A stretch of DNA of 64,000 bases. Origin: Emergencia timonensis. Lineage in GTDB: Bacteria; Bacillota; Clostridia; Peptostreptococcales; Anaerovoracaceae. A program made the translations under genes and the position numbers. The DNA lies in assembly GCF_900086585.1 (NCBI RefSeq), contig NZ_FLKM01000008.1, positions 372,001 to 436,000 of the forward strand. The letters are read 5' to 3'. This document shows, piece by piece, positions 17,531 to 60,610 of the stretch (position 1 is the first letter of the stretch; every line of letters starts with the position of its first letter). Below the pieces are notes generated by a model. That model had not been told where the DNA came from and searched no databases. It was given only the letters and a program-made list of their open reading frames with translations.

Positions 17531-19492
<1,962 letters not shown>

Positions 19493-19509
19493 GGAAGGAG
19501 GGCAAAAAA

Positions 19510-36379: not shown

Positions 36380-37108
36380 ATGCTAGAATTAAAGACGATT
36401 ACAAAAAAGTATGACGATAAATACGCGCTGCAGGATATTTCTCTAACTCTTTCAGAAGGCATCTATGGTATTCTAGGTCCCAATGGTGCGGGAAAATCGA
36501 CGTTGATGAATATCATTACAGAGAATCTTCAGGCAGACGAAGGGCAAGTTTTATGGGACGGTAAATCAATACAGGAGTGGGGAGCGGAATATCGGGCGAT
36601 TTTAGGCTACGCTCCTCAGCAGCAAGGCCTCTATGATACTTTTACAGGCCGTCGTTTTCTCAGTTATATGGGAGCATTAAAAGAAATTCCCAAAGATCGG
36701 ATAAAAAGTGAGATAGAAGAATCAGCGGCTTATGTAAATTTGCTGGAAAAACTGGATCGCCCGATTGGTACCTATTCTGGCGGCATGAAGCAGCGGCTTC
36801 TGATTGCCCAGGCAATGATGGGCAGCCCAAAATTAATTGTTTTGGATGAGCCGACTGCAGGTCTCGATCCCAAGGAACGAGTCAGTATTCGCGAAAAAAT
36901 TAAAGAGCTGGCAGAGGGTAAAATCATTTTGATGGCCACACATGTGGTTTCTGATATCCAGTCTATCGCAAAAGAAATTATCATTCTGCAGTCAGGCAAA
37001 ATCGCGGCAAAAGACAGCGTAGAAGCCTTGTGTTCTCAATTTGGAGAGGCGAAGGATTTAGAAGCAGTGTATATGGCAATCTTTGGTGAGGAGGCTTCGT
37101 ATGTATAG
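36380..37108 (+). CDS. ABC transporter ATP-binding protein
   Basis: This 242-residue ATPase has Walker A GPNGAGKSTLMNII near residue 35, Q-loop YAPQQQGLY, signature YSGGMKQRLLIAQAMMG, Walker B LIVLDEPTAGLDP and an H-loop in ATHVVSD. It is the short single-domain type used by ABC-2 exporters for antimicrobial peptides or lantibiotics. It overlaps the permease gene by 8 bp. Confidence 0.95.
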   Translation: MLELKTITKKYDDKYALQDISLTLSEGIYGILGPNGAGKSTLMNIITENLQADEGQVLWDGKSIQEWGAEYRAILGYAPQQQGLYDTFTGRRFLSYMGALKEIPKDRIKSEIEESAAYVNLLEKLDRPIGTYSGGMKQRLLIAQAMMGSPKLIVLDEPTAGLDPKERVSIREKIKELAEGKIILMATHVVSDIQSIAKEIIILQSGKIAAKDSVEALCSQFGEAKDLEAVYMAIFGEEASYV

Positions 37109-44115: not shown

Positions 44116-44136
44116 AATTCTGCAGGTGCAGGCTTC

Positions 44137-44352
44137 TTATGAATCTGCTTCTACAGTCAAGAACTTCCCCGAATAGTACCGGCTCCGTAGATCATTCGTG
44201 CCTTGGCTATACGGCGCAGCTCCCTTTTTGTGGACTGGCGTCTTTCTGCCATCCCGAATCCAGGTATAGCTGAGGGGTCTTTTCCCGAAGAAATCCGCCT
44301 TTACTGACACACCATCATCATGGAGCCGGATAACTCGCAGTTGCTTCCCATT
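44137..44352 (-). pseudogene. 3' fragment of a paralogue of the 52765-53361 gene
   Basis: The minus-strand frame ends KADFFGKRPLSYTWIRDG and then KTPVHKKGAAPYSQGT, nearly identical to the C-terminus of the protein encoded at 52765-53361. The 71-residue frame has an in-frame stop upstream and no N-terminal anchor, so the gene has lost its 5' two thirds. It marks the left edge of the GC-rich island, whereas the intact copy marks the right edge. Confidence 0.85.
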
Positions 44353-44543
44353 TTATGGCGAGCCAGCCCACCAACTACGCCACGATGCTGACCACAGACC
44401 CCGGGCTGCTCCGAGCGATGGAATCTGAGTTTCAGTCCTGTCTCGCCCTGTGCAGACCTACATTGTTAACTTTCTTATTCTGCCATTCTCTGGAGCAGGC
44501 TCCCCCTTAAAGTGAGTAAGTTTGCAACAGAATATATACTTTT

Positions 44544-44680
44544 TGTCATTTAAAATGACGCTAAAATGTCATTGTCAATTGTGGATATGCCCTTGAATTT
44601 TGTTTGAAGATGAAGTATTCTATAAGCCAAGAATATTACAGTTTGGAATTTGTCATTATAAATGACAAATATGTGTCATT
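44544..44680. promoter_or_regulatory. TGTCATT operator array upstream of the c-di-GMP genes
   Basis: Two blocks share one layout: a palindrome TGTCATT-N3-AATGAC(A) followed by a direct TGTCATT half-site 23 bp from the first (44544, 44554, 44567 and 44651, 44661, 44674). The blocks are 107 bp apart. The second ends 50 bp before the start codon at 44731. An unidentified DNA-binding protein probably controls this promoter. Confidence 0.65.
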
Positions 44681-44730: not shown

Positions 44731-47307
44731 ATGTTATTCAAGAGAAAAATTTTAGTGGTTGAAGACAATGAGATCAATCGGGCGACGCTGTGTGTCATCC
44801 TGTCTTCTCAATATACGGTTTTGGAGGCAGAAAATGGGGAGCAGGCCCTGTCGCTGCTGGAGAAATACAGAGAGGGAATCTCTCTGATCTTGTTGGATAT
44901 TGTTATGCCGGTTATGGATGGCTACACCTTTCTGAAACATCTGAAAGCAGATAACAGGCTGAACTCAATCCCGGTCATAGTCACAACTTCCAACAACAGT
45001 GAGGCAGATGAGGTGACCGCGCTTTCCAACGGGGCCACAGACTTCATTACCAAGCCCTACCGCGCCCAGGTCATTTTACACCGGGCAGCCGGCATCATCC
45101 GCCTGCGGGAGACTTCCACCCTCATCCATCAGATCCAGTATGACCGGGTCACCGGGGTGTACAGTAAGGAATATTTCTGCCAGCAGGTCCGAGAAATCTT
45201 ATTTCGAAATCCGGATGTGAAATATGATGTCCTTTGTTCAGACATTGAGGACTTTAAACTGATCAACGACACCTTTGGCATGGCTGCAGGGGATCGTCTG
45301 CTGCGGCAGGTGGCGGCGCTCTGTACTCAGCGGCTGGGGGATCGCGGGATCTGTGGCCGCTTGAACGCGGACCAGTTCGCCTGTCTCCTGGAGCATCGCG
45401 AGGACTATGCGGATGAGATGTTCACCCAGTCCGACAGCAAGATCAACAGCGGCTTCGGCGATCTGAATGTGATCATGAAATACGGCATCTACACGGTGGA
45501 GGACCGGGAGGTTTCCGTTGAGCAGATGTGTGACCGGGCGCTGCTGGCGGCGCATAGCATCAAGGGAAAGTATGGCAAGCACTTTGCCCTCTACGACGAT
45601 AAGCTGCGGGGCACCCTGCTGCGCCGGCAGGCCATCACGGACGGTATGGAAACGGCCCTGGCCAAGGGGCAGTTTGAGGTCTACCTGCAGCCAAAGTACC
45701 AGATCCGGGATGGCCGGTTGGCGGGGGCCGAGGCGCTGGTGCGCTGGAACCACCCGGAATGGGGTCTGCAGCCACCTGGGGAGTTTATCCCCCTCTTTGA
45801 GCGCAACGGCTTTATCACGAAGCTGGACCAATATGTCTGGGAGCGGGTCTGCGCTCTGCTCCAGGAATGGGACCGAAAGGGCTATCCCAGCATCAACATA
45901 TCTGTCAACGTCTCCCGCTTGGATATCTACAACACGGATTTGGCGGACGTCCTGACGAGTCTCGTTCGGCGGTACGGTCTTTCCCCCGACCGCCTGCACC
46001 TGGAAATCACGGAGAGCGCATACACGGATACCTCAAGGCAGCTCATCGAGACCCTGGGCACTCTGCGCAGGCTGGGTTTCGTCATTGAAATGGATGATTT
46101 TGGAAGCGGTTACTCTTCGCTGAATATGCTTGCGGAAATGCCCATCGATGTGTTGAAGCTGGATATGAAGTTTATTCAAACAGAGATTACGAGACCCACC
46201 GGCCAGGGCATCCTGCGCTTTATCGTGGACCTGGCCCGTTGGATGAAATTGAGAGTGGTGGCGGAGGGTGTAGAGACCCGGGAACAGTTGGAGCGGCTTC
46301 AAAACGACGGGTGTGACTACGCTCAGGGCTATTATTTTGCAAAGCCTATGCCTGTGGAAAGTTTTGTTTCGGTATTGACAGTGCAGGACCCTCCCGCAGA
46401 TATGGAAAACAGCCGATCTGATGACTCTGCGGACCGCATGGACAGGGCTCTGCTGGTGGTCGATGAGGACGAGGAATATCGTGCTCAGGTGCATCGGAGC
46501 TTCTCAGACTGTTTTAAGGTACTGGAGGCGGCCAGTTATGAAGAGGCAGTTAAAATCCTAGGAAGCCATCCGTATCAGATGTCGGCCGTGATTCTCAGTT
46601 TGACACTCCAAGGTGGTGCTGATATCCTGACTGCGATTCAAAAGGAGCGGGGAGCCTGGGTGACACCATGTGTCGCCACGGGACCTCTGGACATGGAACT
46701 GGAGCGCAGCGCCATGGAGCTGGGCGCCGACGACTATGCGGTTAAGCCCCACAGTCAGGAGTCGCTGCGCAGGCGGGTCCTGCGGGTGATGAGTTTCCAC
46801 ACTCTTCAAGAACGGATACGGTCTCAGCAGGATGAGGCCTGCAGAGACTCCATGACCGGCCTGCTTAACCGCCAGGGGCTGTATACCATAGCCGAATCAC
46901 TGCGGCATGCGTCTTTTTCCGCTGTTTATCTGTTTGAACTAGACGACTTGAAAAAGTTCAACGAGAAGTATGGCTATGTGGAGGGAGATCATTTGATCTT
47001 CCACTTCGCCTCCCTTCTACGTGCCCACACCCGGATGGACGATGTGCTGGTCCGGCTGGGCGGAGATGAATTTCTGGTTGTGATGTGCCACATGAGCTCC
47101 ATGGAAGATGTCAATAAGAAAAAAACGGCTATTCTCCGGGCTTATCATGAGAGCCGTTACGCGGAACCAGATTTGGTGGCCTGCTTTGCCGGCACAGCGT
47201 TCTGGAATGCAGAGGAACCATTGGATGAAATCATACGCCGGGCTCGCGAGGTCATGTATGCTGCAAAGGCCGGCGGTAAGGACGAGTGCCTTATACGGAA
47301 AGGGTGA
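44731..47307 (+). CDS. REC-GGDEF-EAL-REC-GGDEF cyclic-di-GMP protein
   Basis: This 858-residue soluble protein has five domains. REC1 (1-120) has VVEDNE, acceptor Asp near 56 (LLLDIVMPV) and TKPY. GGDEF1 (about 135-290) is degenerate, reading LNADQF at the active site. EAL (about 305-550) keeps AEALVRW, ITES, MDDFGSGYSS, LKLDMKF and AEGVET, so phosphodiesterase activity is likely. REC2 (about 565-690) has lost the acceptor Asp (VILSLTL). GGDEF2 (about 700-855) has an intact RLGGDEF near 777 and an RMDD inhibitory site five residues before it. It may both make and destroy c-di-GMP. No membrane segment is seen. It lies 7 bp before the kinase-GGDEF gene and is visibly richer in GC than the flanks. 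Confidence 0.93.
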   Translation: MLFKRKILVVEDNEINRATLCVILSSQYTVLEAENGEQALSLLEKYREGISLILLDIVMPVMDGYTFLKHLKADNRLNSIPVIVTTSNNSEADEVTALSNGATDFITKPYRAQVILHRAAGIIRLRETSTLIHQIQYDRVTGVYSKEYFCQQVREILFRNPDVKYDVLCSDIEDFKLINDTFGMAAGDRLLRQVAALCTQRLGDRGICGRLNADQFACLLEHREDYADEMFTQSDSKINSGFGDLNVIMKYGIYTVEDREVSVEQMCDRALLAAHSIKGKYGKHFALYDDKLRGTLLRRQAITDGMETALAKGQFEVYLQPKYQIRDGRLAGAEALVRWNHPEWGLQPPGEFIPLFERNGFITKLDQYVWERVCALLQEWDRKGYPSINISVNVSRLDIYNTDLADVLTSLVRRYGLSPDRLHLEITESAYTDTSRQLIETLGTLRRLGFVIEMDDFGSGYSSLNMLAEMPIDVLKLDMKFIQTEITRPTGQGILRFIVDLARWMKLRVVAEGVETREQLERLQNDGCDYAQGYYFAKPMPVESFVSVLTVQDPPADMENSRSDDSADRMDRALLVVDEDEEYRAQVHRSFSDCFKVLEAASYEEAVKILGSHPYQMSAVILSLTLQGGADILTAIQKERGAWVTPCVATGPLDMELERSAMELGADDYAVKPHSQESLRRRVLRVMSFHTLQERIRSQQDEACRDSMTGLLNRQGLYTIAESLRHASFSAVYLFELDDLKKFNEKYGYVEGDHLIFHFASLLRAHTRMDDVLVRLGGDEFLVVMCHMSSMEDVNKKKTAILRAYHESRYAEPDLVACFAGTAFWNAEEPLDEIIRRAREVMYAAKAGGKDECLIRKG

Positions 47308-47314
47308 GCATGTG

Positions 47315-50300
47315 ATGAGTAAATATACAAATTTAGAAGTAATATACGTCTCTCCGTCCAGCAAGCTGCTGCGCGGAAAGGAGGGCAGTACCGGCAACCG
47401 GGTAGTACTTAAGACCGGAGGCCAGGAGCCCATGACGCAGGAGCAAACAGCCCGGCTGCGACGAGAATATCAGATCATGCAGAGGATAGACAGCCCTCAT
47501 GTGGTAAAGGCTTTTGGCGAGGTCACGCTGGACGGGCGCTACTATCTGGTGGAGGAATTCTGTCCGGGGATTACGCTGAGCAGGCTGCTGAAACAGGGCG
47601 CCCTGGATATGCCGGATTTCTACCGGATCGCGGAACAGCTGGTAATGGGCCTGCGGGACATCCACAAGGCTGGCGTCATCCACAAAGATGTGAACCCATC
47701 CAATATCATGTACGACGCAGAGTCCGGCCGGGTGGCGCTGCTGGACTTCGGTATCTCTTCCATGTTTATGCATGAACAGATGTCGGGAACCAGACTTGAA
47801 AATATTGAGGGGACCCTCCGCTACATCGCCCCGGAGCAGACCGGACGGATGAATACGGAGTTGGATTATCGCGCAGATTTTTATTCTCTGGGCATAACCT
47901 TGTATCAAATGCTGACGGGGCGTCATCCATTTGATGCGGAGACCCCCACAGAGCTGGTTTTTTCTCATATTGCGAAGACGCCGCCGGATCTTCGCGTGAT
48001 TTTGCCCAATGTGCCGCCTATGCTTGCAGCCGTCGTAGACAAGCTCCTGGCCAAGATGGCAAAAGACCGCTATTTAAGCAGTGAAGGCCTTCTTTATGAT
48101 CTGACGCGTTGCCAAAGGGAAAAGGAATTTGTCCTTGGCGAAAAGGATTTCAGCCGGCGCTTTGAATTCACCCACCAGCTGTATGGGCGGGAAGATGAAA
48201 TCACCCAGTTGGAGAATGACTTCAAGGAAGTGGCGTCCGGTTCCAAGATTCTTGTCTCCGTCAGCGGTTATTCCGGCATTGGCAAGACCTCGCTGGTCAA
48301 TCAGCTTCAGGAGGAAGCTCATCGGACCAGCGGTATGTTTCTACAAGGGAAGTTTGACCAGTATCACGCCAACGTACCTTACTTTGCCTTTTTCGAGGCC
48401 ATCAAGCAATTTTGCAGCATGATCTTTATGGAGCCGGAGGAAAGTATCGGTAAGTGGAAGCAGACACTGTCAGAGCACTTGGGCGACGACGCGGCTTTGC
48501 TGACCGGTAAGGTGGCGGAGCTGGCCCTGCTGACCGGCACTCAGCCAACCCCTGAGGACATGGGGCCTCTGGAGGAGCGAACCAGGTTCAAATCCGTATT
48601 GGAACAGCTCTTGTCCCTGCTGGCTGCGCCGGAGCATCCTCTAGTTCTGTTTTTGGACGATGTGCACCGGGCGGATATGGGCTCCCTGGAAATGCTGGAA
48701 GAACTGTTCAAAAATGAGGATATCCACGATTTAATGATTATCGTATGCTATCGCGACAATGAAGTAAGCAGCGAACATCCCCTCACCCTCAGCCTGAATA
48801 AAATCATACAGCGGGGCGGCCGGGTCACACAGCTCAACCTGAAAGGGCTGGACCCGGAGAGCACCGCTCAGATGCTGGGAGACATATTCAAAACGGAAGC
48901 GGATACGACTTCTGTGCTGGCGGATATCCTTTATAGGAAGACAAAGGGAAATCCGTTTTACATCAAGCAGTTTCTGCGGCTGTGCCATTCAAAAGGCTAC
49001 CTGAATCTGGATATGGACACCGGAAGCTGGAGCTGGAAGGAGGCGGAGATCCGGGCCTGCCCTGCCCAGGAGAATGTAGTGGACTTCCTGACGGAAAATC
49101 TAAACCAGTTTTCGGAGGAGACCATATCTCTGCTGTCTTTTGGCGCCTGTATCGGTCAAAGCTTTTCTGTGGAGGATCTGTCCGCTGTCTGCGGCCTGCC
49201 AGAACGTGAAATCAACCGCAGACTGATTACGGCGGTGGTACAGGAGGCGGTATATCCCATAGAGAAGGATGGGAAAATCGGCCTGCAGACCATGTATCAG
49301 TTTGCACACGACCGGTTCCAGCAGGTGTTCTATACTACCTTGTCAGAGAAGACGCGGGCAAGTGTCCATTACCTACTTGGAAAGCGGTATGAGGAATATT
49401 CGCGCGCCGCAGGCGTTCTGGACGAACGGGCGTTTGAAATCGCGGACCACTATGCAATGGGGCTTGGGGAGGCGGAGGATCAGGAAGAAAGGCGCCGGAT
49501 TCAGGAATTCCTGCTGGGTACGGCCCACCGGTGCGGGCTGGTATCCGCCTTCGACACGGCGGAGCGGTACCTGAACCTCCTGCTCTCCCAGCCGGAGCTG
49601 AAGCGACCGGAAAACCGTCCCTTCCTCACCAAAGTCTACATGGAATATCATACGGCTCTGTGCAATCTGGTTAAGGAGGAGGAATGCGACCGGATCTACG
49701 GGATGCTCTGCAATCTGGTGACGGAGCCCACTGAGCTGGTAGATAACTGCCGCCTGCAGATATCCAGCTTCTCCAACCGGGGCCGGTATGAGGACGCCTT
49801 TGAGATCGGGCGCACCCTGCTTGGACAGCTTGGAGTCACCTTCCCCGGCGAAAATATGCAGCTGACCCTGGAACAGGAGATCGCATCCTTTTATCAGGAG
49901 CGGGAGGCCCTTGGATCGGAAGATATTCTGAATCTCAAAGAAGCTGAGGACCCGGTGGAGGCCGGGATCAGTAAATTGCTCTGCCGCCTGTGCGGCCCGA
50001 CCTTTTTCTTTCGTCCAGATTATTCCTACTGGACGGTATTTACGGCTGTGCGGCGCATGTTCCAGCATGGTTATACGCCGCATGCCCTGCAGATGTATTC
50101 CAATCTGATGATGCCTCTGGGAGAACTGCGCAGGGATTACCGGACGTCCTACGCGGCTGGCAGGTCAGCTATGCGCCTGGCCGAAAAGCACCAGTACAAG
50201 GAAGTCATCCACTCCATCTACTGTATGTTTGCTCTCCATTCCGGCCATTGGTTCGAAGATGTGGTCAATGAGATTCCCTATGCAAAGGAGTCCATCAAGG

Positions 50301-52312
50301 GAAACGCCCAGATGGGAGACTTTGAGTACGCCTGCTATGGCTATTATGGTCTCATGATGGCGGTCATGGAAAGTGCGGCCCATGTGGAAGAACTGTGGAA
50401 CGAGGCGCAGGCTGGAGTAAAGTTTGCGGAGAAGACCGGTAGCGACCATGCTTTGGGCAGCTTTTTGAGCTTTCAGCAGCTGTGCAGGAGTATCCGCGGG
50501 GAGCTCTCCCTCACCGGAAGTTTTGATGGGGACGGATTTTCTGAACAGGTCCATCTGGAGCAGTTTTCCCACAACCTGCAGGCAATCAGCTATTACCATG
50601 TCATTCGGGCCCTGTCGGCTGTGATCTACCGGGATTATTCCACGGCCTACCGGCTGTGCAGGGACGCTGTGCCCCTGCTCCCGTATGTCTCCAGCTTTTA
50701 CAACGTGGCGCTCCACAATTTTCTGTATTCCCTGTCCATTTGCCAGGTACTGGAGACAGGGGACTGTGAGCCGGAGGCAAGGCCGGAGCTTCTGCGTGTC
50801 CTGGAGGAAAACCAGGATTGGCTGAAGGAACGCAGCAACGACGCGTTCTGCAATTATGGACATCTCTATCTTGTAATCGAGGCGGAGCGGAAAACGGCGG
50901 AAGGCTGTACCGAAGAGGCCCTGCAGCTTTACGAAGAGGCGCTGGGGGCCGCGAAAAAGCATGACCGCAGCCTTCATCATGCCATCCTCTGCGATGTGGC
51001 CGCGCTGCGCTATGAGAGGCTGGGGATCAAGTCGGCAGCCAGGCATTACCTGACGGATACCTACCGGCTGTACAGCCATTGGGGGGCGGAGGGAAAGTGC
51101 GCTCGCATGCGGCAGGACTACCCTGAACTGGCGGGCCTATGGAAGAACGATAACCGGCAGAGTACCCTGTCGGAAGCTTCCATCCGTACCACCGCATCGC
51201 TGGATATGCGCTCTGTGCTGAAAGCGTCCCAGGCCATTTCGGAGGAACTTGAACTGGAAGGCATCCTGGAAAAGCTGATTCACAGTCTTCTGGAATGCGC
51301 GGGAGCACAGCATATCTACTATCTGAGCCAGGCGGATTCCGGGTATGAGCTCCAGGCGGAGGGCCATTCCGGGGCCAAGGACGTATGCATCGTATCAAAG
51401 CGGCCGGCGGAGGGCCGGGATGTTCCGCTGAGCATCGTGTCGTATGTGGAGAGAACACTGGAAGCCGTAATCCTGGAAGACGGAGAGAACTCCAGAGTTT
51501 TTGGCAAGGACATCCATATCAAAGAGAATCACTGCAAGTCGGTCCTGTGCATGCCGATTCTCAGTAAGGGGGAGCTAAAGGGCATCCTCTACTTGGAAAA
51601 CAACCTGGCCGCGGGTGTCTTTGACCAGCGGAGAAAAGAAAACCTCATGCCCATTGCGGCACAGCTGGCCATTTCTCTTGAAAACGCCTATTTATATGAG
51701 CATCTGCGCTTTTTGGTAGACGAACGAACGAAGGCCCTGCTGGAGGAGATCAAGGTGCGTAAGCGGGCGGAGGAAAAGTTGGCCCATATGGCAAACTACG
51801 ACGCACTCACCGGACTTCCCAACCGCAGGCTGTTTCACAAACTCCTGTCCCGGCTGCTCCTGGAGGCAGAAGCCAGCGGGCAGCTGCTGGCTGTCCTCTA
51901 CATGGATTTGGATGGATTCAAAGAGGTCAATGACACCTATGGCCATGAAAAGGGTGACCTGGTATTGGAGGAGACAGCCAGGCGGCTGATCCGTGCTGTG
52001 CGCGGCAGCGATATCGTGTCCCGTCTGGGCGGCGACGAGTTCGTCCTGCTGCTGAGCCGGATTATGGCGGACGAAGAGATCCGGCATGTCTGTGAACGGA
52101 TTCTCTCTGAGATCAGGCAGCCTTTCCGGCTCTCAGAGGACCTGATTGTTGAAATGACAGCAAGTATCGGGGTCAGCGTCTATCCCAGAGATGGTAAGGA
52201 CGAGAAGGAGCTTCTCTCCTGCGCCGACCAGGCCATGTACAAGATCAAAAAAAGTGACAAAAACTTTTACTCGTTTACAGAGCCTCTTTCTGACTCGCAG
52301 GAGAAGTTTTAA
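47315..52312 (+). CDS. Ser/Thr kinase-AAA ATPase-helical-GAF-GGDEF fusion protein
   Basis: Starting at the ATG at 47315 (AAAGGGTGA upstream) this is a 1665-residue protein; the frame is open further upstream only as a shadow of the preceding gene. Domains: protein kinase (about 10-275) with VVLK near 33, VIHKDVNPSNIM near 121 and LLDFG near 143; an AAA_16/STAND-like ATPase (about 290-560) with GYSGIGKTSLVNQL near 320 and LFLDDVHRAD near 447; a long helical TPR-like region (about 560-1290); a GAF domain (about 1297-1460); a short coiled coil; and a GGDEF domain with RGSD near 1563 and RLGGDEF near 1571. The kinase-ATPase-TPR-GAF core is known from large cyanobacterial and proteobacterial signalling proteins that end in a histidine kinase; here a diguanylate cyclase takes that place. 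All key residues look intact. Confidence 0.92.
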   Translation: MSKYTNLEVIYVSPSSKLLRGKEGSTGNRVVLKTGGQEPMTQEQTARLRREYQIMQRIDSPHVVKAFGEVTLDGRYYLVEEFCPGITLSRLLKQGALDMPDFYRIAEQLVMGLRDIHKAGVIHKDVNPSNIMYDAESGRVALLDFGISSMFMHEQMSGTRLENIEGTLRYIAPEQTGRMNTELDYRADFYSLGITLYQMLTGRHPFDAETPTELVFSHIAKTPPDLRVILPNVPPMLAAVVDKLLAKMAKDRYLSSEGLLYDLTRCQREKEFVLGEKDFSRRFEFTHQLYGREDEITQLENDFKEVASGSKILVSVSGYSGIGKTSLVNQLQEEAHRTSGMFLQGKFDQYHANVPYFAFFEAIKQFCSMIFMEPEESIGKWKQTLSEHLGDDAALLTGKVAELALLTGTQPTPEDMGPLEERTRFKSVLEQLLSLLAAPEHPLVLFLDDVHRADMGSLEMLEELFKNEDIHDLMIIVCYRDNEVSSEHPLTLSLNKIIQRGGRVTQLNLKGLDPESTAQMLGDIFKTEADTTSVLADILYRKTKGNPFYIKQFLRLCHSKGYLNLDMDTGSWSWKEAEIRACPAQENVVDFLTENLNQFSEETISLLSFGACIGQSFSVEDLSAVCGLPEREINRRLITAVVQEAVYPIEKDGKIGLQTMYQFAHDRFQQVFYTTLSEKTRASVHYLLGKRYEEYSRAAGVLDERAFEIADHYAMGLGEAEDQEERRRIQEFLLGTAHRCGLVSAFDTAERYLNLLLSQPELKRPENRPFLTKVYMEYHTALCNLVKEEECDRIYGMLCNLVTEPTELVDNCRLQISSFSNRGRYEDAFEIGRTLLGQLGVTFPGENMQLTLEQEIASFYQEREALGSEDILNLKEAEDPVEAGISKLLCRLCGPTFFFRPDYSYWTVFTAVRRMFQHGYTPHALQMYSNLMMPLGELRRDYRTSYAAGRSAMRLAEKHQYKEVIHSIYCMFALHSGHWFEDVVNEIPYAKESIKGNAQMGDFEYACYGYYGLMMAVMESAAHVEELWNEAQAGVKFAEKTGSDHALGSFLSFQQLCRSIRGELSLTGSFDGDGFSEQVHLEQFSHNLQAISYYHVIRALSAVIYRDYSTAYRLCRDAVPLLPYVSSFYNVALHNFLYSLSICQVLETGDCEPEARPELLRVLEENQDWLKERSNDAFCNYGHLYLVIEAERKTAEGCTEEALQLYEEALGAAKKHDRSLHHAILCDVAALRYERLGIKSAARHYLTDTYRLYSHWGAEGKCARMRQDYPELAGLWKNDNRQSTLSEASIRTTASLDMRSVLKASQAISEELELEGILEKLIHSLLECAGAQHIYYLSQADSGYELQAEGHSGAKDVCIVSKRPAEGRDVPLSIVSYVERTLEAVILEDGENSRVFGKDIHIKENHCKSVLCMPILSKGELKGILYLENNLAAGVFDQRRKENLMPIAAQLAISLENAYLYEHLRFLVDERTKALLEEIKVRKRAEEKLAHMANYDALTGLPNRRLFHKLLSRLLLEAEASGQLLAVLYMDLDGFKEVNDTYGHEKGDLVLEETARRLIRAVRGSDIVSRLGGDEFVLLLSRIMADEEIRHVCERILSEIRQPFRLSEDLIVEMTASIGVSVYPRDGKDEKELLSCADQAMYKIKKSDKNFYSFTEPLSDSQEKF

Positions 52313-52342: not shown

Positions 52343-52636
52343 GCGAACGAAACCATTGCTGGTCATGGAAAGGATGAGATCGATGGAAAAAACAATGCCC
52401 GGGATATCCAGGAAATCCCCGAGCCCTTCACAGTGGATACGGCGGCCGATAACATCCGCCATATGAGCAATTCTGATGCCAAAACCATCCCTTTCATCGC
52501 CATGACCGCCAACGCGTTTGACGATGACATGGAAAAGAGCAAGGCTGCCGGCATGAATGCGCATTTGGCCAAACCGATTGAACCTGAGAGGCTGTATCAG
52601 GTCCTCTATGACTTTATTTTGAGGCAGGAGGAATAA
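52343..52636 (+). pseudogene. Remnant of a receiver domain (hybrid kinase C-terminus)
   Basis: The frame ends IPFIAMTANAFDDDMEKSKA followed by AGMNAHLAKPIEPERLYQVL, the second half of a REC domain from a hybrid histidine kinase. The preceding ETIAGHGKDEI segment resembles the first half, but the phospho-acceptor region between them is gone and no start or kinase core is present. The DNA is GC-rich like the two genes before it. A frame of 19 codons (52640-52699) follows and is not credited. Confidence 0.7.
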
Positions 52637-52708: not shown

Positions 52709-52749
52709 GAAACAGCCGCCCTTGACGTATTGTCTTAGGCGGCTGTTTC
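52709..52749. terminator. Bidirectional terminator at the island end
   Basis: A 12-bp perfect stem GAAACAGCCGCC/GGCGGCTGTTTC encloses a 17-nt loop, between the GC-rich block and the convergent gene at 52765. The T-run is short on the plus side. Confidence 0.65.
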
Positions 52750-52764
52750 TTACGAATCTACGTC

Positions 52765-53361
52765 TCACTGTGGGAACTTGCCTGAATAGTACCTGCTCTG
52801 CAGATAACTAGTGCCTTGGCTATACGGCGCAGCTCCCTTTTTATAGACTGGCGTCTTTTTGCCATCCCGAATCCAGGTATAGCTGAGGGGCCTTTTCCCG
52901 AAAAAATCTGCCTTCCCTGCTGTCACGGTGATTCTGCCGGCTTCCCCATTGCTGCCGTCCAGGAGGATCAGGCTGCCTTTGCCGTCATACCTGCACAGAT
53001 ACATGGTAGTCTTAGTTCCGGACTCCTCATCATACTGGCTGCTATACGGACGGTTGATATAATAATAGTTGAACCCTTCGAATGTCCCTTTCTTTTCGTT
53101 TGCAAAGGTCAGATTCTTTTCATCGTAATCCAGGTTTTCATTACTGAAAAAAACGCAGATGTCATGTCCTGATGTGCCGTCCGCCTTCAGATCCTTTGCA
53201 GTATTGAAAACACCGTGAAAAAGGACTGCAGGCCTGCGCAGCTTCTCATCCAGCGCTTTTTCATTATCCCCTCTGATACGGATTAGCAAAAATACCAAGG
53301 CAACGATAAAACAGAGAACAACAATTATCGCGCTGATAACGGTTTTCTTTCTACTCTTCAT
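52765..53361 (-). CDS. Membrane-anchored protein of unknown function
   Basis: This 198-residue protein has one N-terminal TM helix (about 7-28, after KSRKK) and an extracytoplasmic part of about 170 residues with many Tyr, Gly and Asp. The last 50 residues (ADFFGKRPLSYTWIRDG to YYSGKFPQ) recur in the fragment at 44137-44352. The family is not recognised. The ATG follows GGGAGGGTTCC. Its composition is intermediate between the island and the core. Confidence 0.7.
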   Translation of the reverse strand: MKSRKKTVISAIIVVLCFIVALVFLLIRIRGDNEKALDEKLRRPAVLFHGVFNTAKDLKADGTSGHDICVFFSNENLDYDEKNLTFANEKKGTFEGFNYYYINRPYSSQYDEESGTKTTMYLCRYDGKGSLILLDGSNGEAGRITVTAGKADFFGKRPLSYTWIRDGKKTPVYKKGAAPYSQGTSYLQSRYYSGKFPQ

Positions 53362-53935: not shown

Positions 53936-55687
53936 TTATTTTAATTTACTCATATAGTTTTGCTCTTTGCTGATCTTCTCTTCCTCTGTCAGGTCGAATC
54001 CCAGAGTTCCACCCGGGTTCATGATGCCGTCCGGATCAAAGTGCTCTTTGAGGGTGCGGAAGACTTCGTATTCGTTATGACCGATAGACCCCTCCAGCCA
54101 AGGCGCGAACATCTTGCCGATGCCGTGGTGGTGGCTCATGGATGCGCCGCTCTTCTGGATCGCATCGAGAATACCTGCGTGATAAGCCTTGAACTCCGCC
54201 GGATCGTGCATCCGCGTGATGAAAATCCAGTACAGGTTGGCTCCCTGAGGATAGACGTGTGACATGTGGGTCATACAGATGGTGTGCGGTCTGGATTTGA
54301 CAAACTTCCTCACTTCTGCATGGACTTTGCTCATGTTGCTCCAGTTGACGGAGCATTCCATGGTGTCCATGACCAGGCCGAAATCCTGCATGGTATCGCG
54401 CATGTAAGGGTCGTTGAATCTGCCCTTCTCCCAACTCTTTGTCACATAACCGGTCAACGTCAGGCCGCCGTACTTGCGGCACACCCGCTTTGTATGTTTT
54501 GCCAGGTTCTTTGAAAATCCTTTTTCGCCGTTGGTAAAGCTAAGGAACAGGCACATCTTGCCCTCCTCAAAGCCTTTTAGTTTGAACAGATGACGAACCG
54601 GTGAGTCGATGACGTTGTACATGTGCAGCATGATGTTAGTTTCCTCCGGATCGGAGAGACGGAACACCGATGGGTAACCGGCTTCGGACTGCATAATTTC
54701 CTTTGCCGCTGCCTGCGCCGTCTCCCAGTCCTTGAACATATAGGAGAATCGTTTGACCGTTTCCGGCGTGTGGCGGAAAATCTTTAAGGTGACGTGTGTC
54801 AATACGCCAAAGGTTCCTTCACTGCCCATCATGATCTGGTCCAGATCCGGTCCGCAGGCTTTGCGCGGGTAAGTGTCTGTTTTGATGGGGCCGATCGGCG
54901 TTGCATATTCCTGGGCTATGACGATGTCCGAAATGCAGCCGTAGTAAGTAGAGTTTTGACCGGCGCCGCGAGTGACCACCCAGCCGCCCACAGAGGAATA
55001 TTCGAAGCTCTGAGGGAAATGGCCGCAGGTGTAGGCTCTTTTTGCTCCAAAGAGTTCCATTGCATTGTTCAGCACTTTTTCTAGCTGCGGGCCGCTCATG
55101 CCTGCCTGCACCGTGATTGTCTGATCTTTTTCGTTGAACTCGATGACCTTATCAAAACGAAGGCGCATATCGAGAGAGATACCGCCTTTCATACATTCCA
55201 CGCCCCGGGTGACGGAAGAACCGCCGCCGTAGACATAGACAGGAATTTTTTCCTGCTGACAGTAGGCGACAATCTGCTCCACCTGCTCTTTGGTGTCGGG
55301 ATAAGCTACTACATCTGGCACATTTTCCACGATTTTGTTGCGCAGACGCATGATATCGTACATGGTCTTGCCGTAGGCCACGGACAGCCGGGCGTAATTG
55401 TCAGTTCTGACAAATTCGTCGCCGCAGATTTCCCTGAACTTGGTGATATGTTTTTCTTCCAGCTTTACAGGAATGTCAAAATCCACCTCGTCTAACCCCA
55501 GGTCTTCGGTGTAGCCTTTGAAATCGTCGTCTGTCAATTCGAAGACGTCTTTGATCATCTTGTAAAGGGATTCCCGAGGGGCTTTGATCTGTCTCTTTTC
55601 TCCCCATTTAAAAATTGAGCGATAGCTTTTGTCTGAATAGTCGTCGTCGAACCATTTCGGTTCAAATTCTTTATACGGATGTGACAT
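53936..55687 (-). CDS. AGPS-like FAD-binding oxidoreductase
   Basis: This 583-residue protein has a FAD_binding_4 (VAO-type) domain with VYVYGGGSSVTRGVECMKGG near 170 and GAGQNSTYYGCISDIVIA near 245. The C-terminal domain has SMSHHHGIGK near 535, the histidine motif of alkyldihydroxyacetonephosphate synthase (AGPS), and ends DPDGIMNPGG. AGPS-like bacterial proteins include ether-lipid enzymes and lactate- or glycolate-type dehydrogenases, so the substrate is open. Its start overlaps the FGGY kinase stop by 17 bp, and it is last in a five-gene operon. Confidence 0.88.
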   Translation of the reverse strand: MSHPYKEFEPKWFDDDYSDKSYRSIFKWGEKRQIKAPRESLYKMIKDVFELTDDDFKGYTEDLGLDEVDFDIPVKLEEKHITKFREICGDEFVRTDNYARLSVAYGKTMYDIMRLRNKIVENVPDVVAYPDTKEQVEQIVAYCQQEKIPVYVYGGGSSVTRGVECMKGGISLDMRLRFDKVIEFNEKDQTITVQAGMSGPQLEKVLNNAMELFGAKRAYTCGHFPQSFEYSSVGGWVVTRGAGQNSTYYGCISDIVIAQEYATPIGPIKTDTYPRKACGPDLDQIMMGSEGTFGVLTHVTLKIFRHTPETVKRFSYMFKDWETAQAAAKEIMQSEAGYPSVFRLSDPEETNIMLHMYNVIDSPVRHLFKLKGFEEGKMCLFLSFTNGEKGFSKNLAKHTKRVCRKYGGLTLTGYVTKSWEKGRFNDPYMRDTMQDFGLVMDTMECSVNWSNMSKVHAEVRKFVKSRPHTICMTHMSHVYPQGANLYWIFITRMHDPAEFKAYHAGILDAIQKSGASMSHHHGIGKMFAPWLEGSIGHNEYEVFRTLKEHFDPDGIMNPGGTLGFDLTEEEKISKEQNYMSKLK

Positions 55688-57230
55688 TGTTCTCCTCCAT
55701 CTCCCTGCTAATGTTATATAACGGTTTTAATTTATCAAATATTTTTACAAAGATTTCGTTGTAAATTCTGTCATAGATTTTGTGCACTTCCATGTTCGGT
55801 TGAAACTTATCTTTGATGTGGACCATGGATGCCGTTGCCTGGTCCAGGTCGTCAAAACGGCCGATGGCCGTAAAGGCAATCATGGAGCTGCCGATGACGG
55901 CTGCTTCGTAGGTCTGAATGCGGCAGACGGGAACGCCGAACATGTCAGCGGAAATTTGGCAGATTTCATCGCTGCGGGAACCGCCTCCTGCCACATAAAC
56001 TTCGTTCGTTTTTGTACCCATGCGCCTTTCCAGGGTTTTCATTCCTTCCATCAAAGCAAAGTTAATGCCTTCAATAATGGCTCTGTAAATATGTATCCTG
56101 GTGTGAACGTCAGAAAAGCCGATAATAGAACCGCGGGCGTTTGGCATGGATACCCCCGGCGTAAAATATGGCTGAAAGACCAGACCTTCGCAGCCAGGCG
56201 GTATCTCCGCCAGCCGTTGGTTCAGCAGCTCTTCTGCACTGACCCCTTTGCTCTGGGCCTCTCGTTCCTCCTTCTCAGCGAATTCCTTTTTAAACCAGGA
56301 AATCAGCCAATATCCTCTGTATATTTCGATTTCCGGATTATATCGTCCTTTATAAGCAGAAACATATGGCGGGAAGAAACGCTGGGGTTCCACATAGCGG
56401 TCTATGGTATACTGCACCGTAGCTGTGGTGCCGAAGCTGACGGCTGCTTTTTCCGGTGTGGTGCAGGACAGGCCGATGGTCTCACAGCCTTTATCGGAGC
56501 CGGTGGCGATCAAAGGCAGACCTGCCAGGATGCCTGTCTCAAGGGACGCCTTAGCTGTGATTTCTCCCAGCACCTCACCGGGGTGCTTTAGCGCACAGAG
56601 CTTCTCTGGAGGGATGGGGAACACACAATTGGTCAGGTCCTTACTGGTCTGCCAGCGCGCATTTTTATTGTCATAAGGTACGTGGCCGATAATATTTGCG
56701 GTGGAATCCACCATTTTGCCGGTGAAGCAGTAGTTCATGTAGCCGGACAGCATCAGATACTTATACGTTCTCTGCCAAATTCCCGGCTCGTTTTTCATAA
56801 TCCAGTTACAGTGGCAGATTTTGCGGATAAAATTAGCGGTGCCAGTCATGCCGGCAGCTTTAAAAAGCATCTGATTTTTTGCTGGAAAGGATTCTGTCAT
56901 TTCTACTTCCCGTTTGTCCAGCCACAGAATAGCGGGACGTAAGGGAATGCCGTCTTTGCCTACGCAGATATCCGTATCGCGAATCGTCGTAATACTGACG
57001 GCCTTTATGCGGTTCCAGAGATCACCTGACGTCGCCTTCAGCTCTAAAGAAGCCTTACAGATTCCGTCCCAGTAAAATTCTCCCCTTTGCTCTGCCCAGC
57101 CAGGGCTTTGGGAAAAATACGGCTTCTCAAAGTGAATCTGTCTTTTTGAAAGCAAGTTTCCCGACGCGTCTACGAGTACAGCCCGCAGGCTCTGGGTCCC
57201 GATGTCAAATGTTAGTACCAAAGGTTCCAT
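55671..57230 (-). CDS. FGGY-family carbohydrate kinase
   Basis: With the ATG at 57230 (perfect GGAGGTGCGAA site) this is a 519-residue kinase. The first domain begins LVLTFDIGTQSLRAVLVDASG. The second has VSFGTTATVQYTID and the conserved YVAGGGSRSDEICQISADM. FGGY kinases phosphorylate sugars or polyols (xylulose, glycerol, erythritol and others). The substrate is uncertain; the glycerol-3-phosphate dehydrogenase-like genes upstream suggest glycerol or another small polyol. Confidence 0.9.
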   Translation of the reverse strand: MEPLVLTFDIGTQSLRAVLVDASGNLLSKRQIHFEKPYFSQSPGWAEQRGEFYWDGICKASLELKATSGDLWNRIKAVSITTIRDTDICVGKDGIPLRPAILWLDKREVEMTESFPAKNQMLFKAAGMTGTANFIRKICHCNWIMKNEPGIWQRTYKYLMLSGYMNYCFTGKMVDSTANIIGHVPYDNKNARWQTSKDLTNCVFPIPPEKLCALKHPGEVLGEITAKASLETGILAGLPLIATGSDKGCETIGLSCTTPEKAAVSFGTTATVQYTIDRYVEPQRFFPPYVSAYKGRYNPEIEIYRGYWLISWFKKEFAEKEEREAQSKGVSAEELLNQRLAEIPPGCEGLVFQPYFTPGVSMPNARGSIIGFSDVHTRIHIYRAIIEGINFALMEGMKTLERRMGTKTNEVYVAGGGSRSDEICQISADMFGVPVCRIQTYEAAVIGSSMIAFTAIGRFDDLDQATASMVHIKDKFQPNMEVHKIYDRIYNEIFVKIFDKLKPLYNISREMEENNVTSV

Positions 57231-57296
57231 TTCGCACCTCCTTAATGGTTCTGCTCCCAATTTACAAAGCAAATGTTGGACAGAACTTATGCTTTA

Positions 57297-57662
57297 TCAA
57301 ATTGTCATTGTTGCAATGATGTTTACACCTGTTTCTGCAGCATTTTCAAGAACAACATCGCCGCAGACCATTCTCTTCGTTACCACTAGCCTCTGCAATT
57401 CCTCTAAAACCGCGGCGACAGCATATTTGGGGACCTCTCCATTTGTCCGTACAGGCAGGAAAGGAAAATCCTCAAAGACTGTTTTGACCGTGGTGGTAAT
57501 CGAGCGAGTTGGATTGGTCAGTTCCGTGCCGGCAAAAGCGTTGCCTCTAATACAGCGATTTCCCGTTACCTCCAGTTCTCCCTCCTCTGTCAGTACACCG
57601 TGAAGGCGACAACCATTTGGGCAGACAATACAGATTAAATCTTTTTCTATTCGCTTACTCAT
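57297..57662 (-). CDS. DUF1667 protein (anaerobic G3P dehydrogenase accessory)
   Basis: Starting at the ATG at 57662 this is a 121-residue protein beginning MSKRIEKDLICIVCPNGCRL, with the Cys pair CPNGC preceded by ICIVC and a later NRCIRGNAFA. DUF1667 proteins recur as the third gene after glpA-like and FAD-reductase genes in clostridia and probably carry a redox or Fe-S role. Its start overlaps the upstream reductase by 8 bp. Confidence 0.9.
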   Translation of the reverse strand: MSKRIEKDLICIVCPNGCRLHGVLTEEGELEVTGNRCIRGNAFAGTELTNPTRSITTTVKTVFEDFPFLPVRTNGEVPKYAVAAVLEELQRLVVTKRMVCGDVVLENAAETGVNIIATMTI

Positions 57663-58914
57663 GGGCTGCTTCCTCCATAACAAAGTATAAATCTTCTTTT
57701 AATTCTAGTTGCGCAAAATCAATTTCAACTTTCTCCATCTCAGGGGGCCTCAAACCGCCATACTTTTTCCTAAATATTTCCTCATTGCCTAAATACAGTT
57801 TGACGGTAATCGTATCCCGCGTTGCCTTTGAGCGAAAGAAAAACTGTACCTTTTTGTTGGTCTCTGCCTCAAGGCGGGAGGGAACAATGTAGGCAAAATC
57901 ACTGCTGCCTTTTACAGAAACGTAATTAGACGATGTAAAAGGCCTGGCAGCCTGTTTCGCAGCAGCGGCACCTGCTTTTTCACCGCTTTCTGACACATAA
58001 TCGACCAGATCGTTAACATGTAATGCGTTGCCGCAGCTAAATACGCCGGCAACGGTGGTCTGATAGTCCTGATCGGATAATGGGCCTTTGGTCTCAGGGA
58101 GGATGGCGATCCCCAGCGTTTCGGCCAGCTCGTTTTCTGGAATGAGTCCCACCGATACAATTAACGTATCGCAAGGAATGTATTCTTCCGTGCCTGAAAT
58201 GGGCTGCATCCTTTGATCTACAGCACAGACAGTGACACCGGAAAGCCGCTCACGGCCGTGAACTTCTATCACTGTATGGGAAAGATGAAGAGGAATGTCA
58301 AAGTCCACCAGACATTGATAGATGTTCCTTGAAAGTCCGCTTGGTTCTGACTTTGCTTCATATACGCCGAGCACCTTAGCGCCTTCCAGGGTCAGGCGCC
58401 TGGCCATAATCAATCCGATGTCGCCGGAACCGAGAATGACGCAGTTTTTTCCAGGCAGCTGGCCTAAAACATTGACGAAGTATTGCGCTGCCCCGGCTGT
58501 CAAGACGCCGGCGGGACGAGTGCCGTGAATCGCCACTTGTTTTGCTGTTCTTTCCCGACAGCCTGTAGCTAAAATCAGTGTTTTAGAAAATACCCTTTCG
58601 TAGCCATTGTTCTGCGTAAGAGAAAGCTCAAAACCACCAGATATATTGCTTATTTGCGATGCAAATGTCAAAGTTCTGATTTCAACATCTGTTTTTTCAA
58701 TTTCCTCGATAAAGCGGCAGGCATATTCACAGCCAGACAATTTTTCTCCGAATCTAATGAGACCGAATCCATCGTGAATACATTGCTTGAGTACGCCGCC
58801 GAGCCGTTCTTCACGCTCTATCAGTAGAACCTTGGCTTCAGCTTTTGATGCGGAAATTGCAGCGGCCAGACCTGCCGGTCCCCCGCCGATTACGGTAACA
58901 TCATAAGAATTCAC
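57655..58914 (-). CDS. FAD/NAD(P)-dependent oxidoreductase
   Basis: With a GTG start at 58914 (GGGAGGCAGCC upstream) this is a 419-residue protein. It starts NSYDVTVIGGGPAGLAAAIS (FAD dinucleotide fold) and has a second Rossmann motif VILGSGDIGLIMARRL near 165 and a GVFSCGNALHV FAD motif near 300. It is the usual pyridine nucleotide-disulfide-type partner of the GlpA-like protein. The start overlaps glpA by 14 bp, so the two are translationally coupled. Confidence 0.9.
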   Translation of the reverse strand: MNSYDVTVIGGGPAGLAAAISASKAEAKVLLIEREERLGGVLKQCIHDGFGLIRFGEKLSGCEYACRFIEEIEKTDVEIRTLTFASQISNISGGFELSLTQNNGYERVFSKTLILATGCRERTAKQVAIHGTRPAGVLTAGAAQYFVNVLGQLPGKNCVILGSGDIGLIMARRLTLEGAKVLGVYEAKSEPSGLSRNIYQCLVDFDIPLHLSHTVIEVHGRERLSGVTVCAVDQRMQPISGTEEYIPCDTLIVSVGLIPENELAETLGIAILPETKGPLSDQDYQTTVAGVFSCGNALHVNDLVDYVSESGEKAGAAAAKQAARPFTSSNYVSVKGSSDFAYIVPSRLEAETNKKVQFFFRSKATRDTITVKLYLGNEEIFRKKYGGLRPPEMEKVEIDFAQLELKEDLYFVMEEAAHE

Positions 58915-60610
58915 GGCTGCCTCCCTTCTCCCCAAAGAGAATTTCACTGCCGGGATATCCCTTGCGAACCTGCATTAGCGGAATCTGCTTTTCTTCCGCA
59001 ATCAGTCTGATGACCTGCTGTCCGCAGAAACTGCCCTGACATCTTCCCATGCCGGGCCGCACCCGCCGTTTGATGCCGTCTACTGTGTCGCATGGCAAGC
59101 TTCTTCTCATGGCGTCGAGAACTTCCCCTTTGCTGACTTCTTCACAGCGGCATACAATTTGGCCGTAGTCGGGATTTTCCTTAATCAGATTTGCACGTTC
59201 TTCGTCTGTCAGTTCCTTTGGCCGTATAATTGCCTTGCGGATCGGGTTAAATTTTGGGTTCTTGTTTTTTTCTCCTAAAAGCTCTGTAACCAAAGACTCC
59301 ACTTGAAGCCCTATGGCTGGCGCCGCTGTGAGGCCGGGAGATTGGATACCTGCTGCATGGACGATATTATCGGTCAGTCTCCCCTTTTCTATAATGAAAT
59401 CTTCTTCATAAGTCGCAGCTCTGATACCGGTGAAATAGGTAATGATATCGCCTGTAGTCAGCCATTGTCCTGCGTGGCTGTGTTTCTCAAAGGTAGACTC
59501 TATACTCTCTTTGTGCGTTGCAAAATCCTCTTTTTCTATGGTTTCCGCCGCATCAGGTCCGACCAAAACATTGCCGTCTACGGTACCCACGATGCCGCCT
59601 CCTTTGGTGTGTCCGCTCTTAGACTGTGTGCCCATGAGGGTATAAATGGTTTTAATATGTCGGCGGGCTTTTTTATCGAGAATGGCGTTGGTGCCTTTCC
59701 GCGGATGAATGGAGAAAAAACGATCCCCTGCCATCTGCGCAATATCTTCTGCAAAGACGCCGGCGGCGTTGACGACAATTTTAGGATAAATGGTGCCGCG
59801 GTTCGTAGAAACACTTTTAATGCGGCCGTCTTTGACTTCCATCTTTGAGACTGCGGTATTCAGTGCAATTTCGGCTCCATTGTCTACGGCGTTTTCTGCA
59901 AAGGCAATGGTGAGACCGTATGGGCATACTGTTCCCGCGCCGTCAAAGTAAAGGGCGCATTTTGCTTCTGGTGAAATGCCAGGCTCCAATCTGCGCAGTG
60001 TTTTTCCTGTGATGACATGAGCTTTGCCGGCTGCCGTCAGGTTCCAATAAGGAATTGTCAAAATGAGCAGCGGCAGATAGGATATTTTCTTAAAACAGAG
60101 AAATTGACCGCTGCGCACAAAAGGAACGTCAAGTTCTTTGCAGACTTTGTCGTAGAGGGCATTGCCCAGATTATTCATCTTCTTTTTGAGAAGGCCCGGC
60201 CTGATATCGATTCCGGGGTGAACCATGCCATCGTTTCTCGACGAAGCATGCAGGGCAACATCGTATTCTTTGTCAATCAGTAAAATTTCCATTTTTTCTT
60301 TGGTCAGCTCTCTGGCAATGGCACAGCCGACAACTCCGCCGCCGATGACGAGCACATCAGGGCGTCTTCCCTCTAAAGCAGCGTCGCTGATCTTTGGCTG
60401 TATAACGCAAGGTTTTTCTAAGCCGGGCACCGTAATATCGTTTACGATATGCTTTTTACTCCCGCTTTTTGCACACATAAGCCCCGCTTCGACCACCTGA
60501 TTCCAGGTATCAACGGTACCAGTCAACCGAAAACTGTATCCAGTGTCTGCGATGTGCACGTTCCCGCCAAAACGAATATCGAGGCGCTTCTGCACTTTTT
60601 TGATGTTCAA
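58901..60610 (-). CDS. BON-DAO-BFD glycerol-3-phosphate dehydrogenase-like protein
   Basis: This 569-residue protein starts at TTG 60610 after GGGGAGGTGGGG. Residues 1-65 look like a BON domain (RLTGTVDTWNQVVEAG to HIVNDITV), which is unusual on this family. A DAO/GlpA FAD domain follows with VLVIGGGVVGCAIARELTKE near 88 and SSRNDGMVHPG. The C-terminal BFD-like [2Fe-2S] domain has VCRCEEVSKGE near 480 and RPGMGRCQGSFCG near 520. It would oxidise glycerol-3-phosphate or a similar polyol phosphate to a keto form and pass electrons to the next two gene products. Confidence 0.9.
   Translation of the reverse strand: MNIKKVQKRLDIRFGGNVHIADTGYSFRLTGTVDTWNQVVEAGLMCAKSGSKKHIVNDITVPGLEKPCVIQPKISDAALEGRRPDVLVIGGGVVGCAIARELTKEKMEILLIDKEYDVALHASSRNDGMVHPGIDIRPGLLKKKMNNLGNALYDKVCKELDVPFVRSGQFLCFKKISYLPLLILTIPYWNLTAAGKAHVITGKTLRRLEPGISPEAKCALYFDGAGTVCPYGLTIAFAENAVDNGAEIALNTAVSKMEVKDGRIKSVSTNRGTIYPKIVVNAAGVFAEDIAQMAGDRFFSIHPRKGTNAILDKKARRHIKTIYTLMGTQSKSGHTKGGGIVGTVDGNVLVGPDAAETIEKEDFATHKESIESTFEKHSHAGQWLTTGDIITYFTGIRAATYEEDFIIEKGRLTDNIVHAAGIQSPGLTAAPAIGLQVESLVTELLGEKNKNPKFNPIRKAIIRPKELTDEERANLIKENPDYGQIVCRCEEVSKGEVLDAMRRSLPCDTVDGIKRRVRPGMGRCQGSFCGQQVIRLIAEEKQIPLMQVRKGYPGSEILFGEKGGSREFL

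Follow-up and report, generated by a model that had tools for sequence, protein, structure and literature searches.

The closest described systems to the locus reported here include large signalling proteins that carry a Ser/Thr kinase. One family of such proteins, cbSTKIII/HstK, has an AAA_16 domain, although the part of PMC2176072 used here does not name it. As far as the available part of PMC2176072 goes, cbSTKIII/HstK shares with the 1665-residue protein described below an N-terminal KD-type Ser/Thr kinase, at least one GAF domain and a C-terminal signalling output. Its output is a histidine kinase, whereas that of the 1665-residue protein is a GGDEF domain, and that part of the source describes no island of the kind found here. 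A clostridial protein comes closer in its output. A Clostridium thermocellum protein of 1826 residues (gi|23020879), with a kinase, six TPRs and a GGDEF domain, was listed in 2005 (PMC1262709), and the accessible portion of that paper proposes a role for it in making cyclic diguanylate. By description, both proteins are clostridial and have the order kinase–repeats–GGDEF, but the ATPase and GAF domains of our protein are not reported for the C. thermocellum one in that portion.

Family models point to two further likenesses. The TOMM system kinase/cyclase fusion TIGR03903, a kinase–cyclase fusion by name, is an NCBIfam match of the 1665-residue protein (best stretch residues 286-715), but its score of 205 bits is far under the curated cut-off of 705.75, and the C-terminal domain here is GGDEF. 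Among the NCBIfam matches listed (25 of 44), the GGDEF domain model alone reaches its cut-off. Hybrid histidine kinase–HPt phosphorelays (TorS, BarA and RcsC among the matches, all under their cut-offs) resemble the related island at locus L021 in their PAS, HisKA, HATPase_c and two REC domains together with a separate HPt gene. The island differs in its likely output gene, which encodes a REC-GGDEF-EAL-REC-GGDEF protein, and the copy studied here has lost the relay.

Second-messenger systems are usually regarded as a cell's own wiring. SXT/R391 integrative conjugative elements carry diguanylate cyclases, and they have c-di-GMP enzymes on transferable DNA in common with our island, which differs in being a sensor–phosphorelay–regulator set in which no conjugation or integration gene was recognised. 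What is new here is the island and its transfer; the domain plan of the protein is already of a known kind. A c-di-GMP control set that moved between bacteria with 65-68% RpoB identity makes the portability of such wiring testable.

Domains and proposed working of the 1665-residue protein

The window (the whole stretch of DNA analysed, 64,000 nucleotides from Emergencia timonensis) encodes an uninterrupted protein of 1665 residues plus stop at 47315-52312 on the forward strand. The frame stays open upstream to 47108, where it runs into the 3' end of the gene ahead of it (which ends at 47307). The purine-rich GGAAAGGGTGAG ends 6 bases ahead of the start at 47315, and for six of the seven close relatives the alignment begins at residue 1 and stays in a single frame. 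The seventh, from Eubacterium callanderi (L026), is split near residue 224 into two frames, parting most of the kinase from the rest, and was left out of the dN/dS and residue counts. The seven full-length copies, each of 1665 residues, give dN/dS values of 0.098-0.137 in 21 of 21 pairs, so an open reading frame with these domains is not a product of chance. Purifying selection acts on the gene, with domain-wise dN/dS against the window copy of 0.025-0.205. The original prediction had placed a kinase, a STAND-like ATPase, a GAF and a GGDEF domain in one protein; Pfam and the translation agree, and the order is right. The full plan runs from the kinase and the STAND-type ATPase through a probably helical, TPR-like region to the GAF domain, a signalling helix and GGDEF.

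The Ser/Thr kinase domain (residues 16-254; 47360-48076, forward strand; Pkinase 1.2e-40) has a complete Hanks-type Lys-Glu-Asp-Asn-Asp catalytic set. K33, E51, D125 of HKD, N130, D144 of DFG and E174 of the PE motif are present and identical in the seven copies tested, the window included. A 'KD' form, here HKD, is reported for the cyanobacterial dual kinases cbSTKIII in the part of PMC2176072 available. The glycine-rich loop GxGxxG is not matched in the window kinase, which reads VSPSSKLLRG, and it is poorly retained in distant relatives. Because the canonical loop is missing, kinase activity is uncertain. The earlier view that all signature residues are intact is borne out for the catalytic residues it lists, which are identical in seven copies, with the non-canonical glycine loop as a qualification.

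The kinase is followed by an AAA_16 P-loop ATPase (residues 288-476; 48176-48742, forward strand; 1e-35) with the Walker A motif GYSGIGKTS and the Walker B motif LFLDDVH, the combination expected of a STAND ATPase. Walker A Lys324 and Walker B Asp448 are identical in the same seven copies, and in 27 rows of distant relatives the lysine is found in 26 of 26 aligned and the aspartate in 27 of 27. In the window protein, the stretch of approximately 830 residues that separates the ATPase from the GAF domain has no Pfam match above cut-off. Residues 561-1290 (48995-51184, forward strand) probably form a winged helix and a TPR-like superhelix, a fold suggested by matches elsewhere in the family: of 28 members, 12 match TPR_CHK1 and 5 match nSTAND6, both counted over whole proteins irrespective of position. 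A PDB sequence search with a profile of residues 561-1290 returned no match, and structure prediction for residues 1-720 (7 sequences; mean pLDDT 40) gave no usable model.

The GAF domain (residues 1313-1455; 51251-51679, forward strand; 1.5e-8) occurs in 28 of 28 family members. It is joined to the GGDEF domain by a linker (approximately 51680-51790, forward strand) that carries V-x-ERT-xx-L at residues 1468-1475, reading V-D-ERT-KA-L, and thereby the ERT motif of the signalling helix, or S-helix, as given in the available part of PMC1592074. The protein ends in a GGDEF diguanylate cyclase domain (residues 1493-1650; 51791-52264, forward strand; 1.8e-45) with I-site RGSD and RLGGDEF, whose best PDB sequence matches are the diguanylate cyclases 4urs/4urg. 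The GGDEF motif, an upstream DxD, the I-site RxxD and the guanine-binding N and D are all there. RGSD is located five residues ahead of GGDEF, the canonical I-site position.

With a probability of roughly 0.6, we read the protein as a soluble ATP-gated diguanylate cyclase and as the core that remains of a c-di-GMP signalling island spread by horizontal transfer. Sensing of a ligand or partner would fall to the TPR-like region, the GAF domain or both, and ATP binding and hydrolysis by the AAA_16/STAND-type domain would set the conformation. The conformational change would then travel via the ERT signalling helix and pair two GGDEF domains, which would convert GTP to c-di-GMP and be subject to product feedback through the I-site RGSD. 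The KD-type kinase at the N-terminus probably adjusts this switch through autophosphorylation or by phosphorylating a partner. Because relatives join the same sensor module to two other outputs, the protein provides a natural test of how a diguanylate cyclase takes its input from an NTP switch together with a eukaryote-like kinase.

Exchange of the output in the wider family

In a class-wide draw, 21 of 391 genomes hold a relative at E <= 1e-100, the window genome counted. Within the family of the window genome the count is 4 of 349, its own included, and in the genus no full-length copy was found in 12 other members (5 of them less than 90% complete). The 27 distant loci are 24-36% identical to the 1665-residue protein. 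Two of them, L036 and L052, contain a stop and were represented by the longer of their open pieces, which leaves all or most of their kinase region out of the counts.

A Pfam scan of 28 members (the window, L021 and 26 distant relatives) found AAA_16 and GAF in 28 each, Pkinase in 27, HATPase_c in 10, GerE (LuxR-type DNA binding) in 9 and GGDEF in 8. The same kinase–ATPase–GAF module is thus joined to three classes of output: a histidine kinase, a LuxR-type DNA-binding domain or GGDEF. The GGDEF output occurs in 6 of 27 distant relatives and does not form one clade. In the family tree, built with L026 and L061 left out, L036, L037, L038 and L055 stand apart from the window group, L035 and L044 (alignment A1 leaves out L061 and the six close copies L022-L027). 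All aligned distant relatives retain the Walker residues, whereas 13 of 27 have the full kinase set K-E-D-N-D, which points to the ATPase as the constant part. The aligned sequences point to an ATPase–sensor module that stays constant while its output is swapped.

The same counts bear on an alternative in which the kinase is the true output. Its phosphorylation target would be a partner, such as the regulator or the REC-EAL protein, and the GGDEF domain would provide feedback through the c-di-GMP that it makes or binds. Catalytic residues that are intact in the seven copies tested, together with a kinase-domain dN/dS of 0.085-0.174 against the window copy, are what such a role would predict. 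The kinase set is also complete in 5 of 6 distant relatives with GGDEF output, as against 8 of 21 others, a hint rather than a test since the rows are related by descent; the sixth, L036, is unaligned there, its kinase region lying largely outside the ORF used. Nevertheless, we consider a kinase output unlikely: the set is incomplete or unaligned in 14 of 27 distant relatives, which means that the family as a whole can do without kinase activity, and the glycine loop is missing.

Relatives are also found on plasmids, where among the best 5000 records 200 contain a match that spans at least 80% of the query. The top two carry the annotation 'EAL domain-containing', and their match runs over the GGDEF region. 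Other annotations read 'trifunctional serine/threonine-protein kinase/ATP-binding...' and 'ATP-binding sensor histidine kinase'. These names and the available part of the cbSTKIII report (PMC2176072) agree with the predicted likeness to kinase-ATPase-GAF-histidine kinase giants. Pkinase, AAA_16 and GAF follow each other in the window protein in the order of these kinase-STAND-GAF giants (HstK-like family). By its domains the protein is a variant of a known family, with GGDEF in place of the histidine kinase, and not a cbSTKIII member. The implied novelty of a c-di-GMP output on this architecture stands only in part. GGDEF recurs among the distant relatives, and a clostridial kinase with TPRs and GGDEF had been listed in 2005, to go by the accessible portion of PMC1262709; in the open-licence literature, we found neither a characterised protein with this GGDEF output nor a description of the island.

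Anatomy and transfer of the island

In six hosts, the gene lies in a GC-rich unit of approximately 13 kb with an XRE-like regulator, paired operator-like palindromes, the REC-GGDEF-EAL-REC-GGDEF protein, the 1665-residue protein, a hybrid histidine kinase and often HPt. At L021, a divergent XRE-like regulator (525 residues) is followed by the genes for the REC-GGDEF-EAL-REC-GGDEF protein, the homologue of the 1665-residue protein, a hybrid histidine kinase (SnoaL-like, PAS, HisKA, HATPase_c and two REC domains) and HPt. Three hosts have an extra ORF of 1051-1062 residues after these genes, similar to the second histidine kinase of a diverged island on contig C9 of the window genome.

In six other islands the regulator shares 91-96% identity with its L021 counterpart. 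It has no Pfam or NCBIfam match; its helix-turn-helix was read from the sequence. Its predicted structure has a mean pLDDT of 44, with mainly residues 21-130 better (block means 56-83). Elsewhere, the regulator family occurs in 5 of 391 genomes of the class draw (the window genome counted) and on two plasmid records, of [Eubacterium] eligens and Lachnospira eligens.

Directly upstream of the 1665-residue protein, the window encodes the 858-residue neighbour (44731-47307, forward strand). It comprises REC, a degenerate GGDEF (RLNADQF), an EAL domain with its motifs kept, a degenerate second REC and a last GGDEF. Of 7 other islands, 6 have the two genes side by side. In 7 of 7 copies this protein retains the Asp of its first receiver and the motifs of its EAL domain and has a degenerate first GGDEF, and in 6 of 7 the second receiver is without its Asp; the last GGDEF motif is retained, with E-L-D as its upstream acidic motif. 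In complete islands, the hybrid histidine kinase would act via HPt on this protein, which would degrade or make c-di-GMP, and the phosphorelay would thereby set the activity that opposes the 1665-residue cyclase. Many islands have lost parts, so these need not work as one system: Blautia schinkii has neither the REC-GGDEF-EAL-REC-GGDEF neighbour nor the histidine kinase, and a motif check found an intact HPt frame in 3 of 6 longer islands. An azaaromatic (yjdF) riboswitch lies just outside the E. callanderi island, at L026 18130-18227.

The region that separates the divergent genes contains two operator-like palindromes with the pattern TGTCATT-NN-AAATGAC. In the window these are TGTCATTTAAAATGACG (44544-44560) and TGTCATTATAAATGACA (44651-44667), 107 bp apart. 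Full pairs at identical spacing are found in Cuneatibacter, MCC353, E. callanderi and Lactonifactor; the half-sites of Soleaferrea and CE91-St61 keep the spacing as well, and the second site of Blautia schinkii is degenerate. With at most one mismatch allowed, the 4.66-Mb window genome has four matches to TGTCATTNNAAATGACA, two at the cassette, as against one match for the reversed control. The two further matches are at C9:1711179 and C8:1409065. Such palindromes would fit a pair of binding sites for the regulator, possibly with looping, and the XRE-like regulator bound to them would control the divergent promoters.

Copies of the protein with 87-94% identity were found in at least seven named genomes (Soleaferrea, MCC353, Cuneatibacter, CE91-St61, Lactonifactor, Blautia schinkii and Eubacterium callanderi); the scan used six exact 8-residue patterns, which makes seven a lower bound. 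The five of these hosts that were looked up in the NCBI taxonomy all belong to the class Clostridia (orders Eubacteriales and Lachnospirales), as the predicted clostridial host would suggest. RpoB of the seven is 65.0-67.5% identical to that of the window genome (66-69% for the main pieces in a local search). Between the window genome and Soleaferrea, RpoB is 66.9% and the 1665-residue protein 93.9% identical, which rules out vertical descent for this pair, and gaps of a similar kind separate both from the remaining hosts. These identities show horizontal transfer for the window genome and Soleaferrea. For E. callanderi, with RpoB 65-67% and the copy 89-91% identical to other hosts, they make horizontal transfer likely. 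MCC353, Cuneatibacter, CE91-St61, Lactonifactor and Blautia may have inherited the island by descent without transfer, because in 10 of 10 pairs their identity in the protein (86-93%) lies near that in RpoB (81-88%). Pairwise synonymous distances of 0.24-0.60 among the copies indicate that the transfers were not all very recent. Conflict between the gene tree and the RpoB tree was dropped as an argument for transfer, as the conflicts sit at moderately supported nodes alone.

The DNA around the gene agrees with a mobile unit. Similarity extends over approximately 13 kb in six hosts and 16.6 kb between Soleaferrea and MCC353, and in Blautia schinkii is limited to pieces of 1.7 kb and 5.0 kb. The flanks share no near-identical DNA between hosts except a 3.2-kb extension common to Soleaferrea, MCC353 and Cuneatibacter; other similarity there consists of scattered matches of approximately 63-73%. 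A highly similar unit thus sits in distant hosts between unlike flanks, as is characteristic of a mobile element. Pfam recognised no integrase or transposase among the regulator, histidine kinase and HPt of L021. The GC content of the island (51.2-55.1%) is above that of its flanks (41.8-49.5%) in 8 of 8 hosts, and the island may stem from a GC-richer source lineage outside the sampled genomes. Vertical inheritance in all hosts with loss in most lineages and no transfer is scarcely credible in the face of the RpoB gaps that separate the window genome and Soleaferrea from each other and from other hosts, the elevated GC and the unlike flanks, even though the scatter of distant relatives over the class and the near-equal protein and RpoB identities of the five-host group are what it would predict.

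STAND ATPases with TPR-like sensors act in defence, and this resemblance, together with the patchy distribution, the transfer and matches to PADLOC kinase models, raises the question whether the protein serves as a defence sensor of the STAND type, with c-di-GMP as its response to phage or other mobile DNA. We regard this as very unlikely. The PADLOC matches listed (25 of 35) fall mainly on the kinase domain and are generic, and the island carries histidine kinases and an EAL protein. Furthermore, two limited searches, a distant DNA comparison with phages over 48179-50800 and a scan of viral contigs with six exact patterns, found no match.

The reduced copy in the window and the C9 island

The window copy retains the two c-di-GMP genes and remnants of other island genes. 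DNA comparison places a remnant of the regulator gene, approximately 166 bp and inverted relative to other islands, at 44295-44460 (forward strand). Internally deleted fragments of the hybrid histidine kinase gene lie at 52356-52632 (forward strand), where a middle piece of 39-42 bp matched two relatives alone. HPt similarity was not found in the window, including the stretch after the histidine kinase remnants. The cassette is flanked by a 169-bp direct repeat (87%), with the left copy at 44134-44301 and the right copy, at 52747-52914, forming the 3' end of an ORF on the reverse strand (52765-53361); a third copy was not found in the window genome.

Fragmentary control genes without HPt similarity, in an island type that loses parts in other hosts too, invite the view that the 1665-residue protein gene is a relic, a functionless orphan of a decayed island. 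This seems quite unlikely to us. Both remaining ORFs are intact, and codon changes confined to the window are mostly synonymous (43 synonymous and 11 not in the 1665-residue protein gene, 31 and 12 in its neighbour), from which it follows that both genes were under constraint, though many of these changes may predate the loss.

The island at C9:1870575-1879217 (L092) has an XRE-like regulator divergent from two hybrid histidine kinases and contains neither the 1665-residue protein gene nor the REC-GGDEF-EAL-REC-GGDEF gene. It is approximately 72-79% identical in DNA to other islands over the main matches. In the window strain, this island may provide regulator and histidine kinases in trans; that its intergenic region holds degenerate palindromes alone weakens the case. 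A more far-reaching version, which we hold tentatively and think more doubtful than probable, is that of a transferable, self-regulated island with a regulator acting on looping-type paired operators, a phosphorelay, a bifunctional turnover protein and a kinase-STAND-GAF diguanylate cyclase. It would spread between orders of Clostridia and plug into the recipient's c-di-GMP pool, and in the window strain the enzyme half would have been split from a control half now provided by a paralogous island at another locus.

The window genome has 31 GGDEF matches above cut-off, some within one protein, a rich c-di-GMP repertoire. Rfam at gathering score returned no family in the window, hence no c-di-GMP riboswitch at that threshold.

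Some further genes in the window are worth recording. A 798-residue ORF at 37083-39479 has no Pfam match at 1e-6 and no PHROGs match at 1e-3. Pfam recognises gyrB and gyrA at 17561-22017, and the ORFs ahead of gyrB have the sizes and order of dnaA, dnaN and recF, so that the cassette may be near the replication origin. On the reverse strand at 53936-60610, an FAD-linked oxidase, an FGGY-family kinase, a pyridine nucleotide-disulphide oxidoreductase and a DAO/BFD-type oxidoreductase are encoded in a row.
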